Source: a virus
IMG/VR virus record: IMGVR_UViG_3300020421_000108
Location: 1-28,055 of that record
Reading direction: 5' to 3' (one strand)
DNA length: 28,055 bases
The notes under the pieces were generated by a model. That model was not told the DNA's origin and ran no database searches. It was given only the letters and a program-made list of their open reading frames with translations. Position numbers and translations under genes: made by a program. Shown in pieces: positions 5,660 to 18,382 of the stretch (positions are counted from its first letter, which is position 1; each line of letters begins with the position of its first letter).

Positions 5660-5802
5660 ACTATAAAACTAATTTTGCTTTGATCCAACACCATAAATAT
5701 AGCTTGACGGAAATTGAAAATTTAATGCCGTGGGAACGCGATGTTTACACTGCATTATTGCAACAATATCTTGACGAACTTAAAAAAGCACAAGAAAGCT
5801 AA
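5626..5802 (+). CDS. -1 frame extension of gp26 (lambda gpT-like), or 52-residue small protein from ATG 5644
   Basis: The frame holds a protein part beginning M-T-L-E-G-Y-Y-K-T-N at ATG 5644 and ending E-L-K-K-A-Q-E-S. It contains F-A-L-I-Q-H-H-K-Y-S-L-T-E-I, then M-P-W-E-R-D-V-Y-T-A-L, a pattern typical of the second, frameshift-encoded part of tail assembly chaperones (a helix, then a Ser-Leu-x-Glu-Ile turn, then Pro-Trp-Glu-Arg). In the -1 frame after the slippery site it would add 58 residues to the first 236 of gp26, giving 294. No stop separates 5626 from 5644. No clear ribosome binding site precedes the internal ATG. Its stop overlaps the start of the next gene (TAATG). The octamer CATAAATA at 5692 is inside the coding sequence and may be chance. 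Confidence 0.8.
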   Translation, partial: RVSLFHMTLEGYYKTNFALIQHHKYSLTEIENLMPWERDVYTALLQQYLDELKKAQES

Positions 5803-8800
5803 TGGCATCAGGATCTTACGCAATTAAAGGTTTACAACTAGGAAACGGTAAAAAACGTGACCGTCTTGGGTGGAAAGTTGAGGCTGATAAACAAAGTGTT
5901 AAAAGGGGTGATATTGTCACCTTTACGATTACTGCTAAAAATGGCAAGTTTCCAGATGGCACAAAGAGAAAGTTTGTAATATCTGAAAATTTTTCTGAAG
6001 CAGATATTGTTGATGGTAAGATCGCTGGTGAATTTGAACTTGTAGGTAATAAAGCAACTGTAGAAATTGGTATTGAGGAGACATACGAAAAACCACAAAA
6101 TGAAACTCTTAGGTTTGGTGTAACTTCTACTTTTGCCTCTGCATCTGTAAATGTAGAATCTGATGGTGGTGAAAAGGACTTAAAAAGATTAAGAGGTAGG
6201 GAACAAAAAAGATTACCTAGTAGACGAGAGCCTGTAAAAAGAGTAGTAGTTAGACAGTTAGAATTACCACCTGGAAAAGGATCTATTGTACCAAGATCTA
6301 GTGGAAGTATTACAAAAGGAGGCAGAAAAGCTTTACCTCCTGGTGGTCCTAGATTGCCTGGAACAGGTGGACCATCTATACGTATGCCATCCCGAACTGG
6401 TAGCGTAAAACCACAATCATCTGGACTTGGAGATTTACTTAATCAAGCTCAGAGTGGAGTTGGTGGTAGAGGTCAATACTTATCAAAACAAGAAAGAATT
6501 TCTGCATTTAGAAAAGCAAGAGTTCCTAGAGCATCAGCTGGCGTAAAACCAATCTCTTCTCTATCCAAAAAAGGTGGTGCTATTGGAAAGATTGGTAGTG
6601 CATTAACAAAATCTGTTGGTGGAGCAGCTACTAAAGGAGCTACTAAAGGAGCAGGTAAAGTAGTAGCAAAAGGAGCGGGTAAAGCAGTAGCAAAGAAAAT
6701 TCCTGGCGTTGGATTACTAGCAGGTGCTGCATTTGGTATCGAAAGATTGTTGAAAGGTGATATTGTAGGTGCTGTTGGTGAATTGGCATCTGGCGCTGCT
6801 TCTACTGTTCCTGGTATTGGAACTGCTGTATCTTTAGGCATTGACGGTGCGTTGATGGCTGGTGATATGGTAGGAGGACAAAAAGCACTTCCACCAGCAA
6901 AATTCAAAAAAGGTGGAACAATTATTCCTGGTATGACAAACATGCCATTTAGTATGCCTGGATTGAATGGCATATTTAATGAACCTGGAAATCCAGAAGT
7001 CATGAGTATTCAACCTCTCAAACCATTAAAAGATGCTCTTGGCGGTGGTCTTATGAGTATGCTCCCTGGTATGGGTCCTCTGGGTATGCTTGGTGGTATT
7101 GGTTCTGCCGTTGGTGGTGGTTTAAAAAATATCTTTGGTGGTAAAGAAAAGGAATATAAAGGTATTGCGAAAGCAATTGGTGCAGAGATGGAGCGTAGAG
7201 GTATTGGTGATCCACTTGGTTTGAAAGGTGGTAAATCGTTTGGTAATAGTGTTAGAGACCTCTTAGACAAAATTCCTGGTATCAAAGATATCTTTGGTAA
7301 GCGTGATGGTGGTGGTAATACACAAGGTCAACAACAGAGACCTAGTGGACAACAACAGATGATAGGTGGTGCAAGTGAACAATCACTTACAGAAGCATTA
7401 ATTGCTGGTGAAGAAGGAGTAAAAACTGAAGCCTATAAAGATAGTGAAGGTATTTGGACAATTGGATATGGTCAGACCACCATTAATGGTAGGGCAGTAC
7501 AGCAAGGCGATAAAATGACTCGTGAAGAGGCATTAGGTGGATTTAGACAAAATATTAGTGAACATCAAAAGAGAGCAATTGCTCAAGTTGGGGAAGAAAG
7601 ATGGGCACAAATGGATCCCAAGATGAGGGCAGTCCTAACATCCATTACATATAACTACGGAAGTATCCCAGATAGAATATTACCAGAAGCAAAATCTGGA
7701 ACTTCTGAAGATCTTGCTACTGCAATGAACAAGTTGTATGGAGATAATCGTGGTGATCTAAAAGGTAGAAGGGAAAGAGAACAATCTATTCTTAGAGGAA
7801 ATCTACAGGGATCTTCCGCTAATCCTACTAGATTAGATCAAGATTTTATGCCAGGTGGTCAATTTGCTGCACCACAGCAACAATCAAATCTTATCCCAAT
7901 GGGTGGTCCTCAAGGAACAGGTCAAACTGTTGTTCTTGCTGGTGGAACAAATACTGCTAATGATCCTGTTAGAGCAGGAAGAGATATGATGAACACCATC
8001 AAAAATCTCAAAGCGAAGGGATATAGAGTTGTTGTAGTTCCACCTAATCAAAAAGAATATGGTAGAGCTTATAGTGCAATTAAATCTGCTGCTTCAAATG
8101 AAGGTGCAATTATAGAAGAAGGAGTTTACGAAACTAGAGATCCTGCTCATCTTACACCACAATTTGCAAGTCAACTTAACTCTAAGTATGCTGGTGCTAT
8201 CTTCATGGGAGATAGTAATGCTGCAAGAATTGCTGGAGATCGTGGTTTAAAAAATGTTAGAAGAGAAGGTGCTGGAACTGGTGAAATCTTAAAGCAAGCA
8301 CAGCAAGCGCAGAGAGCACCACAAGCACCTTCTGCTAATAATCAATTGAACCCAGGTGTACAGCAGATGAGTTACTCACCATCTGCTGCTGGTACACAAG
8401 CTGCATCAAATGCAGCAGTTCAACCACAAACACCAATGCAACCAACTGCTGCTCTAGAGGGTGCTGGAACATTCATTCAAGGTAATACTGGAAATTCTCG
8501 TGGACCTCACTTCCATATTGGACCAGAACAAGAATTGTGGGGTAAACCAGAAGGTAAAGCAGAAGTAAGACGTGCATCATTTAAGATCGCAAAGGCTCTT
8601 ATTAATAAAGGAGAACATTTCTCGTTTACAAATGCAATGATTGATATTGATCCTAATAATCCACCTGATGATGCAACATTGATGAAATATGTTGAACAAG
8701 AACAAATAGCTCATGCTGGTAGAGATGGTGGTGGATCTTTTGGTGGTATTGATATTGCTGGAAAACCTGGATTAAGATTGCCTCTTGGTGTTTCTAATTA

Positions 8801-9266
8801 CAAAGAGTCATCTACAGGATTTGGAAATACTGCAACGATTGCTGGAACTAGAGCATTTGTTGCACATGGTATGACTGGATCTGGTAATACTCCTGGTGCA
8901 AATGCTTTAGCACCTGGTGGAGCTCCTTCTAATGGTGTACAGTTGATGAGTAATACATCACCAGCAGCACCAGCAGGAAACCCTGAAGATTTCTTCAAGT
9001 TCGCATTTAGTTCTCAAGGAAGGGAAAGTTCATATACAGCACCACCAAACGCTGCACCAACTGCTCTATTAGAGGCATCTTCTAATACAGCGATGGCATC
9101 AGCAGGACCAAAAGTTGCTGTTGTGAACAACCCAGTTTCATCTTCAACCAACGTCAGTAATGGTGGTGGATCTCAATCTCAACAATCAAGTAGAGGTTCT
9201 GATATGTCTGATGCTGGATTACTAGCATATATGGCTAAACAAAGATTATTAACCTTAGGAGCTTGA
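5802..9266 (+). CDS. Multi-enzyme tail protein: Ig-like domain, GH24 lysozyme, permuted SGNH and M23-like signatures
   Basis: An 1154-residue Gly-rich protein in the usual tape-measure position. Residues about 21-118 form an Ig/beta-sandwich domain similar to one in gp5 here. Residues about 225-370 are basic and Gly/Ala rich, with hydrophobic segments (G-V-G-L-L-A-G-A-A-F-G and later) that could cross a membrane. Residues about 525-670 are a T4-type lysozyme: Glu538, Asp547 and Thr553 keep the exact spacing of T4 lysozyme Glu11, Asp20 and Thr26. Residues about 708-835 carry SGNH-hydrolase blocks in the order G-G-T-N (714-717), D-P-A-H (780-783), G-D-S (803-805). Residues about 885-1025 carry M23-type elements with G-P-H-F-H (901-905) before H-A-G-R-D (971-975), G-I-D-I-A (982-986) and V-A-H-G-M (near 1022). 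Likely role: breaching the cell wall during infection. Start ATG overlaps the previous stop. Confidence 0.85.
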   Translation: MASGSYAIKGLQLGNGKKRDRLGWKVEADKQSVKRGDIVTFTITAKNGKFPDGTKRKFVISENFSEADIVDGKIAGEFELVGNKATVEIGIEETYEKPQNETLRFGVTSTFASASVNVESDGGEKDLKRLRGREQKRLPSRREPVKRVVVRQLELPPGKGSIVPRSSGSITKGGRKALPPGGPRLPGTGGPSIRMPSRTGSVKPQSSGLGDLLNQAQSGVGGRGQYLSKQERISAFRKARVPRASAGVKPISSLSKKGGAIGKIGSALTKSVGGAATKGATKGAGKVVAKGAGKAVAKKIPGVGLLAGAAFGIERLLKGDIVGAVGELASGAASTVPGIGTAVSLGIDGALMAGDMVGGQKALPPAKFKKGGTIIPGMTNMPFSMPGLNGIFNEPGNPEVMSIQPLKPLKDALGGGLMSMLPGMGPLGMLGGIGSAVGGGLKNIFGGKEKEYKGIAKAIGAEMERRGIGDPLGLKGGKSFGNSVRDLLDKIPGIKDIFGKRDGGGNTQGQQQRPSGQQQMIGGASEQSLTEALIAGEEGVKTEAYKDSEGIWTIGYGQTTINGRAVQQGDKMTREEALGGFRQNISEHQKRAIAQVGEERWAQMDPKMRAVLTSITYNYGSIPDRILPEAKSGTSEDLATAMNKLYGDNRGDLKGRREREQSILRGNLQGSSANPTRLDQDFMPGGQFAAPQQQSNLIPMGGPQGTGQTVVLAGGTNTANDPVRAGRDMMNTIKNLKAKGYRVVVVPPNQKEYGRAYSAIKSAASNEGAIIEEGVYETRDPAHLTPQFASQLNSKYAGAIFMGDSNAARIAGDRGLKNVRREGAGTGEILKQAQQAQRAPQAPSANNQLNPGVQQMSYSPSAAGTQAASNAAVQPQTPMQPTAALEGAGTFIQGNTGNSRGPHFHIGPEQELWGKPEGKAEVRRASFKIAKALINKGEHFSFTNAMIDIDPNNPPDDATLMKYVEQEQIAHAGRDGGGSFGGIDIAGKPGLRLPLGVSNYKESSTGFGNTATIAGTRAFVAHGMTGSGNTPGANALAPGGAPSNGVQLMSNTSPAAPAGNPEDFFKFAFSSQGRESSYTAPPNAAPTALLEASSNTAMASAGPKVAVVNNPVSSSTNVSNGGGSQSQQSSRGSDMSDAGLLAYMAKQRLLTLGA

Positions 9267-14903: not shown

Positions 14904-14957
14904 TAAGTTAAGGTTATCACATCCATTGGATATCCGTATTGCCAACTGGCACAAGGG

Positions 14958-14980: not shown

Positions 14981-15038
14981 TGATAAATTAACTTTGTAGC
15001 AATCAGAGAAGGTGCTTCAACTAATCGCACCAACTCAC

Positions 15039-15067
15039 TTGACGCTTTCTGCATCATGTGCTATACT
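15039..15067 (+). promoter_or_regulatory. Sigma70-type promoter for the outer-membrane-type gene
   Basis: TTGACG (15039-15044) and TATACT (15062-15067) are separated by exactly 17 bases, close to the bacterial consensus. Transcription should start near 15075, about 75 bases before the coding sequence. It does not resemble the late octamers, so host RNA polymerase could read it early. Confidence 0.8.
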
Positions 15068-15075
15068 TTTAAAGC

Positions 15076-15139
15076 AGTCGGGAACAACCGACTCTCCATC
15101 TGCGGGTAACCACTCCGCAAGAAAACAAACAAACGAGGA
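15076..15139 (+). promoter_or_regulatory. Structured mRNA leader with two stem-loops and a strong ribosome binding site
   Basis: A-G-T-C-G-G (15076-15081) pairs with C-C-G-A-C-T (15088-15093) around a 6-base loop. T-G-C-G-G (15101-15105) pairs with C-C-G-C-A (15115-15119). The first loop begins at or next to the predicted transcript 5' end, as in stabilising leaders of outer-membrane protein mRNAs. GAGGA at 15135-15139 is 9 bases before the ATG. Confidence 0.6.
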
Positions 15140-15148
15140 AAAATTTCA

Positions 15149-15520
15149 ATGATCAAATCCGCATTCGCAGCCACCGCTGCTCTGTCCATGTCTGCTGGTG
15201 CCGCTTTTGCTGGTCCCTACGTTAACGTAGAAGCAAACTCAGGATTCACTGGATCCAGCTACAACGGAACCGCCACAGACCTTCACGTAGGTTACGAAGG
15301 CGCTCTTGGTGAGAACGCTTCATACTACGTCCAGGGCGGTGCTACTGTCGTCTCTCCTGACGGTGGCGAAAGCGACACCGTTCCTTCTGGTAAGGCAGGT
15401 CTTGGTATCGGTTTGACCGATGCTCTGGGTGCATACGGTGAAGTTAGCTTCGTCGGTTCTGGCGACAGCAACATCGACCGTGGTTATGGAACCAAGCTGG
15501 GTCTCAAGTACAGCTTCTGA
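15149..15520 (+). CDS. Secreted outer-membrane-type beta-barrel protein
   Basis: A 123-residue protein with a clear Sec signal peptide: M-I-K-S-A-F then an Ala/Leu-rich core and A-A-F-A at 18-21, giving a mature form of about 102 residues from Gly22. The mature part alternates hydrophobic and polar residues with many Gly and Ser, has strands such as A-S-Y-Y-V-Q-G-G-A-T-V-V, G-L-G-I-G-L and A-Y-G-E-V-S-F, and ends L-G-L-K-Y-S-F. A terminal Phe after an alternating strand is the usual beta-barrel insertion signal of outer-membrane proteins. The gene is visibly richer in G+C than the tail genes and uses host-like codons. With its own promoter, leader and terminator it looks like a moron. Possible roles are surface change or exclusion of other phages; neither is shown by the sequence. 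Confidence 0.75.
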   Translation: MIKSAFAATAALSMSAGAAFAGPYVNVEANSGFTGSSYNGTATDLHVGYEGALGENASYYVQGGATVVSPDGGESDTVPSGKAGLGIGLTDALGAYGEVSFVGSGDSNIDRGYGTKLGLKYSF

Positions 15521-15547
15521 TTCACGGATAGTGTGATATAATAACAA

Positions 15548-15569
15548 GGGACCTACGGGTCCCTTTTTT
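15548..15569 (+). terminator. Intrinsic terminator
   Basis: G-G-G-A-C-C and G-G-T-C-C-C form a 6-bp GC-rich stem with loop TACG, followed at once by six T residues. It lies 27 bases after the outer-membrane-type gene. Confidence 0.9.
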
Positions 15570-15571
15570 AT

Positions 15572-15579
15572 TCTAAATA
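15572..15579 (+). promoter_or_regulatory. Late-promoter-like octamer TCTAAATA before the small-gene chain
   Basis: TCTAAATA starts two bases after the T run of the terminator and lies 21 bases before the ATG at 15601. It resembles the ACTAAATA elements at 4114 (minus) and 4890. Confidence 0.4.
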
Positions 15580-17606: not shown

Positions 17607-17870
17607 ATGATGAAGTTTACTATTAGTCGTCAACATTGTTTTGTTGACAATGAACCAGTAATGATGTATTTTATTCAGGGTATGCCATTTGCTTTTGATG
17701 TCCTAGAAAAGGAAGATAAAGAGGATAAATGGATTCTATCTGAATGTGCAATTAATCAAGAGTATACATTAGAGGACATCTTCAAATTTTCTGATTATCT
17801 CATTGCAGAAGAATGTCATCCCGTGTTATTTGAATTAGATCTTATTAATCCAGAACTTATACCAGAATGA
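17607..17870 (+). CDS. 87-residue acidic protein, function unknown
   Basis: Two ATG codons in tandem (17607, 17610) follow AGGA at some distance. The protein begins M-M-K-F-T-I-S-R-Q-H-C-F, has a hydrophobic central strand region (V-M-M-Y-F-I-Q-G-M-P-F-A-F) and an acidic C-terminal half. Its stop overlaps the cpeT start (ATGA), so the two are likely co-translated; whether it also touches pigment metabolism is unknown. No family is recognised. Confidence 0.65.
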   Translation: MMKFTISRQHCFVDNEPVMMYFIQGMPFAFDVLEKEDKEDKWILSECAINQEYTLEDIFKFSDYLIAEECHPVLFELDLINPELIPE

Positions 17871-18382
17871 GTTTCATTGAACTATTGGTTGGGACATTTG
17901 CAAACAAACGTCAAGCGCAATCCCACCCCACTCGCTATGCACACATTCGTGTTTCTCACCGTTTGATTGGAGAGAATCGTATATATGGAGAGCAAGCATA
18001 CAACTATCTACTCAATCGTCCATATCGTCAGTTCGTGATTGATGTGGTTCAGGATGGAGAAGAGTATCATCTCAAGAACTACGAGATTGCAAACCCGCTT
18101 CAGTTTGCACAATGTCAGCGTTTGGAAGAAATTACGGAAGACATGTTGACATATCGCGAGGGTTGTGATATTATTATGAGACAGACAGGTTCGCAGTCAT
18201 ATTTTGGCGGGACCTCAACCTGTAACTGCTACGTGAATTGGAATGGGACAGACACATATGTCCAAAATGAAGTCACCTTGACTGCAGATGAATACCACGT
18301 AGTAGACAAAGGTCTTCATACAGAAACCCATCAGAAAGTATGGGGTTCTGATTGGGGTGCTTTTAAATTTGTGCGGCAGTAA
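17867..18382 (+). CDS. cpeT: CpeT-type phycobiliprotein lyase
   Basis: The 171-residue protein matches the CpcT/CpeT family, which attaches or chaperones bilins on phycobiliproteins. Traits are L-V-G-T-F-A-N-K-R-Q-A near the start, then H-P-T-R-Y-A-H-I-R, G-E-Q-A-Y-N-Y with R-P-Y-R-Q-F-V (about 41-56), G-C-D-I-I-M-R near 100, and the end pattern K-V-W-G-S-D-W-G-A-F-K-F. A Cys pair lies in S-T-C-N-C-Y-V. cpeT is a known auxiliary gene of marine cyanomyoviruses and probably keeps light harvesting working, or changes it, during infection. It is a little shorter than typical host proteins of about 200 residues. The ATG overlaps the stop of the 87-residue gene. Confidence 0.88.
   Translation: MSFIELLVGTFANKRQAQSHPTRYAHIRVSHRLIGENRIYGEQAYNYLLNRPYRQFVIDVVQDGEEYHLKNYEIANPLQFAQCQRLEEITEDMLTYREGCDIIMRQTGSQSYFGGTSTCNCYVNWNGTDTYVQNEVTLTADEYHVVDKGLHTETHQKVWGSDWGAFKFVRQ

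Follow-up and report, generated by a model that had tools for sequence, protein, structure and literature searches.

Analysis of a 28,055-nucleotide viral sequence (IMG/VR record IMGVR_UViG_3300020421_000108, positions 1 to 28,055, here called the window) supports the presence of a closed transcription unit, with a host-type promoter and a gene whose product is secreted and bears the signature of an outer-membrane barrel. An earlier note on this DNA had proposed such a unit; we found that the two leader stem-loops it had pointed out are a covarying two-hairpin RNA across relatives and are the most informative part of the unit. Unit conservation, RNA covariation, gene specificity, the terminator and the barrel signal were each computed for the cassette. 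The conserved cassette and its gene-specific leader RNA appear to be undescribed, as we found no description of them in the literature searched, a body outside which most subscription papers fall. All features of the unit described below lie on the plus strand.

Distribution and genomic context of the Phage_OMP gene

The gene of the unit is a 123-amino-acid open reading frame at positions 15,149 to 15,520. By its profile matches, it is a clear, full-length member of PF24653 (Phage_OMP; E value of 1.8e-50, 170.7 bits against a cut-off of 27, profile positions 1 to 122 of 122) and of PHROG 417 (phrog_417; E value of 7.7e-56), a family already known by sequence annotation only and labeled "DUF680" or T4-GC 241 in isolate genomes. 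The family has matches in 455 phage records, mostly from T4-like phages of Synechococcus and Prochlorococcus; T7-like podoviruses are also among them, and there the family gene adjoins psbA amid head genes. DUF680 was reported in 15 of 16 genomes (PMC3037559), and on these sequence records the gene is nearly universal in marine T4-like cyanophages. The nearly-core genes found in 15 of the 16 genomes are absent solely from S-PM2 (PMC3037559), and T4-GC 241 appears to be absent from S-PM2d.

The neighbors of the gene vary widely between phages. They include a baseplate lysozyme gene in the window and in ACG-2014j, a psbD-side gene and nrdC in Syn19, talC in P-HM2, a pstS-linked paralogue in P-SSM2 and S-SCSM1, glycosyltransferase genes in S-SSM7 and S-CAM9, tRNA-Gly and hli in S-H9-2, and the gp24 side in ACG-2014f. 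While these neighbors differ, the promoter and terminator of the gene persist. The earlier note had called the unit a moron, and the comparison holds for the cassette's own promoter and terminator, its apparent dispensability and its host-envelope-directed product. In contrast to morons, which are sporadic, the cassette is nearly universal in its group, has a dedicated RNA leader and often has an added late promoter.

We also made several observations on the surrounding genes. A diverged second family copy without the leader RNA lies immediately 5' of pstS (L092:4570-4929 and L085:4553-4909) and is a possible phosphate-linked paralogue. Within the window, positions 17,867 to 18,382 hold a gene for a CpeT-like antenna protein (PF06206), a known cyanophage auxiliary gene, and positions 5,802 to 9,266 encode a tail-region protein of 1,154 amino acids with an internal phage lysozyme domain at residues 537 to 644.

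Promoter, terminator and upstream boxes

The near-consensus sigma-70 promoter noted earlier is present, with a −35 element TTGACG (15,039 to 15,044), a 17-bp spacer and a −10 element TATACT with a TG extension (15,062 to 15,067), and an intrinsic terminator lies at 15,546 to 15,573. When the window is taken alone, neither signal rises above chance (11 promoter-like sites versus 16.7 expected from shuffles, and 2 terminators versus 2.3), so the claim was tested across relatives. Of 67 dereplicated relatives, 51 have a sigma-70 site with at least 10 of 12 matches and 17-bp spacing 5' of the gene, compared to 107 of 1,650 control windows (6.5%). In a wider sampling that was not dereplicated and allowed slightly wider spacing, the promoter was present in 77 of 88 close relatives, 73 of 100 divergent loci and 0 of 66 T7-like (podovirus-type) loci. 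Terminators were found within 120 nucleotides of the stop codon in 85 of 90 close, 93 of 109 divergent and 3 of 67 T7-like relatives, also not dereplicated, compared to approximately 1% of control windows, or 0.8% in the comparison with the close set; for both signals the divergent set takes in a few podovirus-type loci. Thus, the promoter and terminator are significant only through their conservation across relatives, and the T7-like relatives keep the open reading frame without the promoter, the RNA or, mostly, the terminator.

The upstream regions also contain a second type of promoter signal. Of 88 close relatives, 45 have an exact copy of the T4-type late motif TATAAATA 5' of the gene, compared to 18 of 2,079 control windows, and in 23 of these relatives it overlaps the −10 element; none was found near the gene in the window. 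For the middle genes of cyanomyoviruses, an overlap of early with late promoters has been proposed (PMC2984593). Since about half of the close relatives carry the late motif, the gene is probably expressed early plus late. The host-type promoter on which the earlier note based its proposal of expression apart from the late program is therefore there, but the separation itself is probably not so simple.

Two further boxes precede the promoter. The AACTGGCACAAGGG box is located at 14,944 to 14,957, and AACTGGCACA is found upstream of 39 of 189 family genes, compared to 0.3% of control windows. At other loci the AACTGGCACAAGGG box turns into a palindrome, AACTGGCAC-N2-GTGCCAGTT. We rejected the box as a genome-wide repeat because there was at most one copy in each phage genome searched. 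The CAACTAATCGC box, just 5' of the −35 element (15,018 to 15,028), is present in 36 of 189 family upstream regions versus 2 of 2,335 control windows, and is a possible regulator binding site. In some relatives the CAACTAATCGC box replaces the −35 element ahead of an extended −10.

Base composition and origin of the gene

As the earlier note had observed, the unit is richer in G+C than its surroundings, with 54% for the gene versus 38.7% for the window. Third-position G+C of the family genes in relatives ranges from 0.23 to 0.53, showing that a high G+C content is not general; because of this, it gives no argument for recent acquisition, and we rejected it as a mark of recent transfer.

The earlier note had also suggested a search of host genomes for close relatives, and we found none of bacterial origin in a scan of genome contigs and among the cellular Pfam matches inspected. 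The contig scan yielded eight loci, none of which was shown to be bacterial, and the Prochlorococcus locus among them is a cyanophage contig within a single-cell assembly. This same contig was the sole match when the RNA model was run against 151 host-family genomes. The inspected cellular matches above the Pfam cut-off included two T7-like phage contigs (L331 and L332) and a broken family copy near an integrase-like open reading frame (L330). The L330 copy (G116:C1, around 132,523) has two in-frame stops and lies on a 2.4-Mb contig, and it may be what is left of a phage in a cyanobacterial chromosome. Two other loci in host-family genomes (L328 and L329) encode histidine-rich outer-membrane-type proteins of about 330 amino acids that adjoin znuA-like and CobW-like genes and weakly resemble Phage_OMP in their C-terminal part; these were rejected as a source of the gene because they are too distant. 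The Pho-regulated S-PM2d169 was likewise rejected as a homologue, since it is unrelated (T4-GC 355).

A covarying leader RNA in front of the Phage_OMP gene

The predicted 5' leader extends from 15,074, a start placed 7 nucleotides after the −10 element, to 15,148. Its first hairpin (15,076 to 15,093) is a variant with stem AGTCGG/CCGACT and loop GAACAA. Across relatives the stem of this hairpin is highly variable and the loop is usually a constant GTCGA, a sequence missing from the variant group to which the window belongs. The second hairpin (15,101 to 15,119; TGCGG/CCGCA) is preceded by an invariant CATC. The ribosome binding site recognized in the earlier note, GAGGA at 15,135 to 15,139, sits 9 nucleotides 5' of the ATG in an A-rich stretch that the pairing profile predicts to be unpaired.

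The RNA is small, with only 11 pairs, and both stems covary. In an alignment of 37 sequences, 94% of the cells pair and 109 cells are double-changed, compared to 31.5 after shuffling, while pairing collapses in slid controls. At 95 loci, in an alignment fitted to the model, there were 325 double-changed cells versus 98.

In 11 of 15 phage records, a covariance model found the RNA once per genome, directly 5' of the Phage_OMP gene; the two podoviruses, ACG-2014f and S-PM2d lacked it. Among 100 divergent loci, 88 have the RNA immediately 5' of the gene, and no podovirus-type locus gave a significant score. Besides ACG-2014f, some freshwater relatives carry the gene without the leader RNA. A blind scan of viral contigs with the motif alone gave at least 80 sites, and in all 80 of those listed the next gene was Phage_OMP, within 25 nucleotides downstream and in one case frameshifted. 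One environmental phage (L409) has an intact leader and a frameshifted gene, which echoes the loss of the gene in evolved S-TIM4, described below. No Rfam family matched the leader at its gathering threshold, and a permissive Rfam search of the window and Syn19 returned chance matches only. The leader is thus absent from the RNA catalogues searched and, among the sites listed, occurs only in front of the Phage_OMP gene. The structured cyanophage leaders PhotoRC-II (RF01717), wcaG (RF01761) and manA (RF01745) also precede host-directed genes, but none of these models matches the Phage_OMP leader; in S-TIM4, PhotoRC-II lies 5' of psbA as a separate element.

Features of the encoded protein

The secreted, beta-barrel-like character proposed for the product in the earlier note agrees with both ends of the protein. 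A signal peptide is predicted at 15,149 to 15,211, with cleavage after AFA and low pLDDT values at residues 1 to 18, and a C-terminal barrel signal, YGTKLGLKYSF, is encoded at 15,485 to 15,517. In the family, phenylalanine at position −1 and an aromatic residue at −3 are found in 71 of 71 sequences, with a hydrophobic residue at −7 and a mostly hydrophobic one at −5. The protein therefore combines the two features by which outer-membrane beta-barrels are recognized, a signal peptide and a C-terminal barrel signal.

AlphaFold predicted six amphipathic strands in two members that are about 30% identical (pLDDT of 81 and 79, pTM of 0.71 and 0.63). The best structural matches of these models are small outer-membrane barrels of the OmpX/OmpA type, and they are weak, with a best Foldseek E value of 0.017 and, for OmpX, a Z score of 9.4 with an rmsd of 4.0. 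A sequence search of solved structures returned nothing at E values up to 1. The known small natural barrels have eight strands; because the models have only six, a free-standing barrel is not assured, and the predicted product may be either a barrel of six strands or one subunit of an oligomer.

Proposed role of the leader RNA

A stable hairpin opens the predicted transcript in 86 of 99 distinct leaders, compared to 35% of shuffles and 50 of 166 other promoter-like sites, with transcript starts taken at their predicted positions in each case. This 5'-terminal hairpin is hairpin 1 in short leaders, including that of the window, and an extra hairpin in long leaders. In addition, the region from −20 to +6 is more often unpaired (0.61) than in shuffled sequences (0.50). 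In the aligned leaders, what follows hairpin 2 is mostly A-rich and has no U-run, and so the leader does not contain the terminator hairpin of a transcription-attenuating riboswitch. Because the RNA keeps its position whichever promoter is used and no U-run follows it, the leader most likely acts after transcription has started.

The predicted stem-loop at the transcript start and the unpaired ribosome site are the marks of an ompA-type leader. The Escherichia coli ompA 5' untranslated region is an mRNA stabilizer (Emory 1992 and Arnold 1998, as cited in PMC3997798), and like the cyanophage leader it has a 5'-terminal stem-loop, one or more internal hairpins and an unpaired ribosome site on the mRNA of an outer-membrane protein; the likeness is one of anatomy alone, with no sequence relation shown. 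When the T7-like cyanophage P-SSP7 infects Prochlorococcus MED4, the host gene for RNase E, rne, is induced (PMC10989914), and a MarR-type factor from a cyanophage raises the expression of host RNase E (PMC9692554). Given the ompA-like anatomy and these reports of RNase E induction, mRNA protection is our preferred reading, and the leader is most likely a 5' element that protects the mRNA and exposes the ribosome site.

Alternatively, the leader might be a riboswitch-like element that senses a ligand or protein and sets translation by a signal such as phosphate status. With CATC invariant and the GTCGA loop nearly so, the sequence next to the covarying stems looks like one that is recognized, the cyanophage leaders wcaG, manA and PhotoRC-II are candidate regulators (PMC2864571), and a related paralogue lies immediately 5' of pstS in P-SSM2 and S-SCSM1. 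We consider such a switch possible but unlikely, since hairpin 2 has no U-run after it, no alternative fold that hides the ribosome site was seen, the structure is small and the loop sequence is lost in the window's group. Very improbable, in our judgment, is the more far-reaching proposal of a new gene-specific RNA class that responds to a signal of infection or nutrients and sets when a six-stranded, surface-remodeling outer-membrane protein is made; this protein would be the smallest natural barrel known or part of an oligomeric one.

Proposed function and location of the protein

In S-TIM4, ORF224 gained 13 mutations, many of them disruptive, which rose to about 100% of populations, and this solely in those evolved on Synechococcus WH8102 (PMC6224464). 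ORF224 is a 39% identical family member (PF24653) that carries the same RNA, and because disruptive mutations swept on WH8102, S-TIM4 can apparently do without the gene, which seems to carry a cost on one host. In S-SZBM1, the 35% identical family member S-SZBM1_90 was detected in CsCl-purified particles by 2 peptides (emPAI of 1.06; PMC9146016), which would fit a virion component instead of a host-envelope protein. That assignment seems quite improbable to us, as S-TIM4 ORF224 was classed as nonstructural after mass spectrometry of particles (PMC6224464), DUF680 was set apart from virion structural genes (PMC3037559), the signal peptide and barrel signal point to export, and particle preparations are open to host-membrane contamination. 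The evidence on virion association of the family thus conflicts, and the earlier note's expectation that the protein is not part of the virion agrees with the S-TIM4 data and not with those from S-SZBM1.

Envelope modification is the best fit for the function of the protein, and two more specific forms of it can be weighed. A phosphate-related or other nutrient porin, or porin accessory, could raise uptake in infected cells; this would agree with the paralogue immediately 5' of pstS, with the over-representation of DUF680 cluster T4-GC 173 together with pstS at BATS (PMC3686209) and with the tolerated loss in nutrient-replete medium (PMC6224464). We regard this as somewhat unlikely, because a mature protein of 101 residues with six predicted strands has no evident pore unless it is oligomeric, and because the window's gene belongs to T4-GC 241, a cluster distinct from the pstS-linked one. 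The protein might instead block adsorption of competing phages. Such superinfection exclusion would suit the outer-membrane signature and early-type promoter, and the loss (PMC6224464) would be explained if the gene carries a cost but brings no benefit when the phage is passaged in monoculture, but the outer loops predicted from strand ends in the AlphaFold model, of about 2, 5 and 9 residues, are very short, and we find this role rather doubtful.

Taken as a whole, we think it fairly likely that the unit is an autonomous envelope-protein cassette of marine T4-like cyanophages with an mRNA-protecting leader and an outer-membrane product; mRNA protection, the membrane location and the envelope effect are what we infer. 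In the proposed sequence of events, host sigma-70 RNA polymerase would read the cassette early, and in many relatives, because a phage late promoter overlaps or adjoins the sigma-70 promoter, the cassette would be read again late. The transcript would open with a stem-loop, followed by or contained in the two-hairpin RNA, and then present an unpaired A-rich ribosome site. As in ompA, this leader would shield the mRNA from 5'-end-dependent decay by RNase E and keep the ribosome site open. The exported protein, carrying its barrel-assembly signal, would most likely insert into the infected cell's outer membrane and, depending on the host, may alter the cell's surface or permeability. The terminator would insulate the unit, and because of this insulation the unit could sit among different neighbors.

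The hosts of T4-like cyanophages are the most abundant photosynthetic cells of the ocean, and nearly every such phage examined retains this separately controlled envelope gene, the loss of which was favored on one host in an evolution experiment (PMC6224464). The covarying, gene-specific leader offers a new, precise and testable entry to the control of a widespread gene with no assigned function. If the leader protects its mRNA, it would show a phage profiting from host mRNA decay while sparing one of its own messages.
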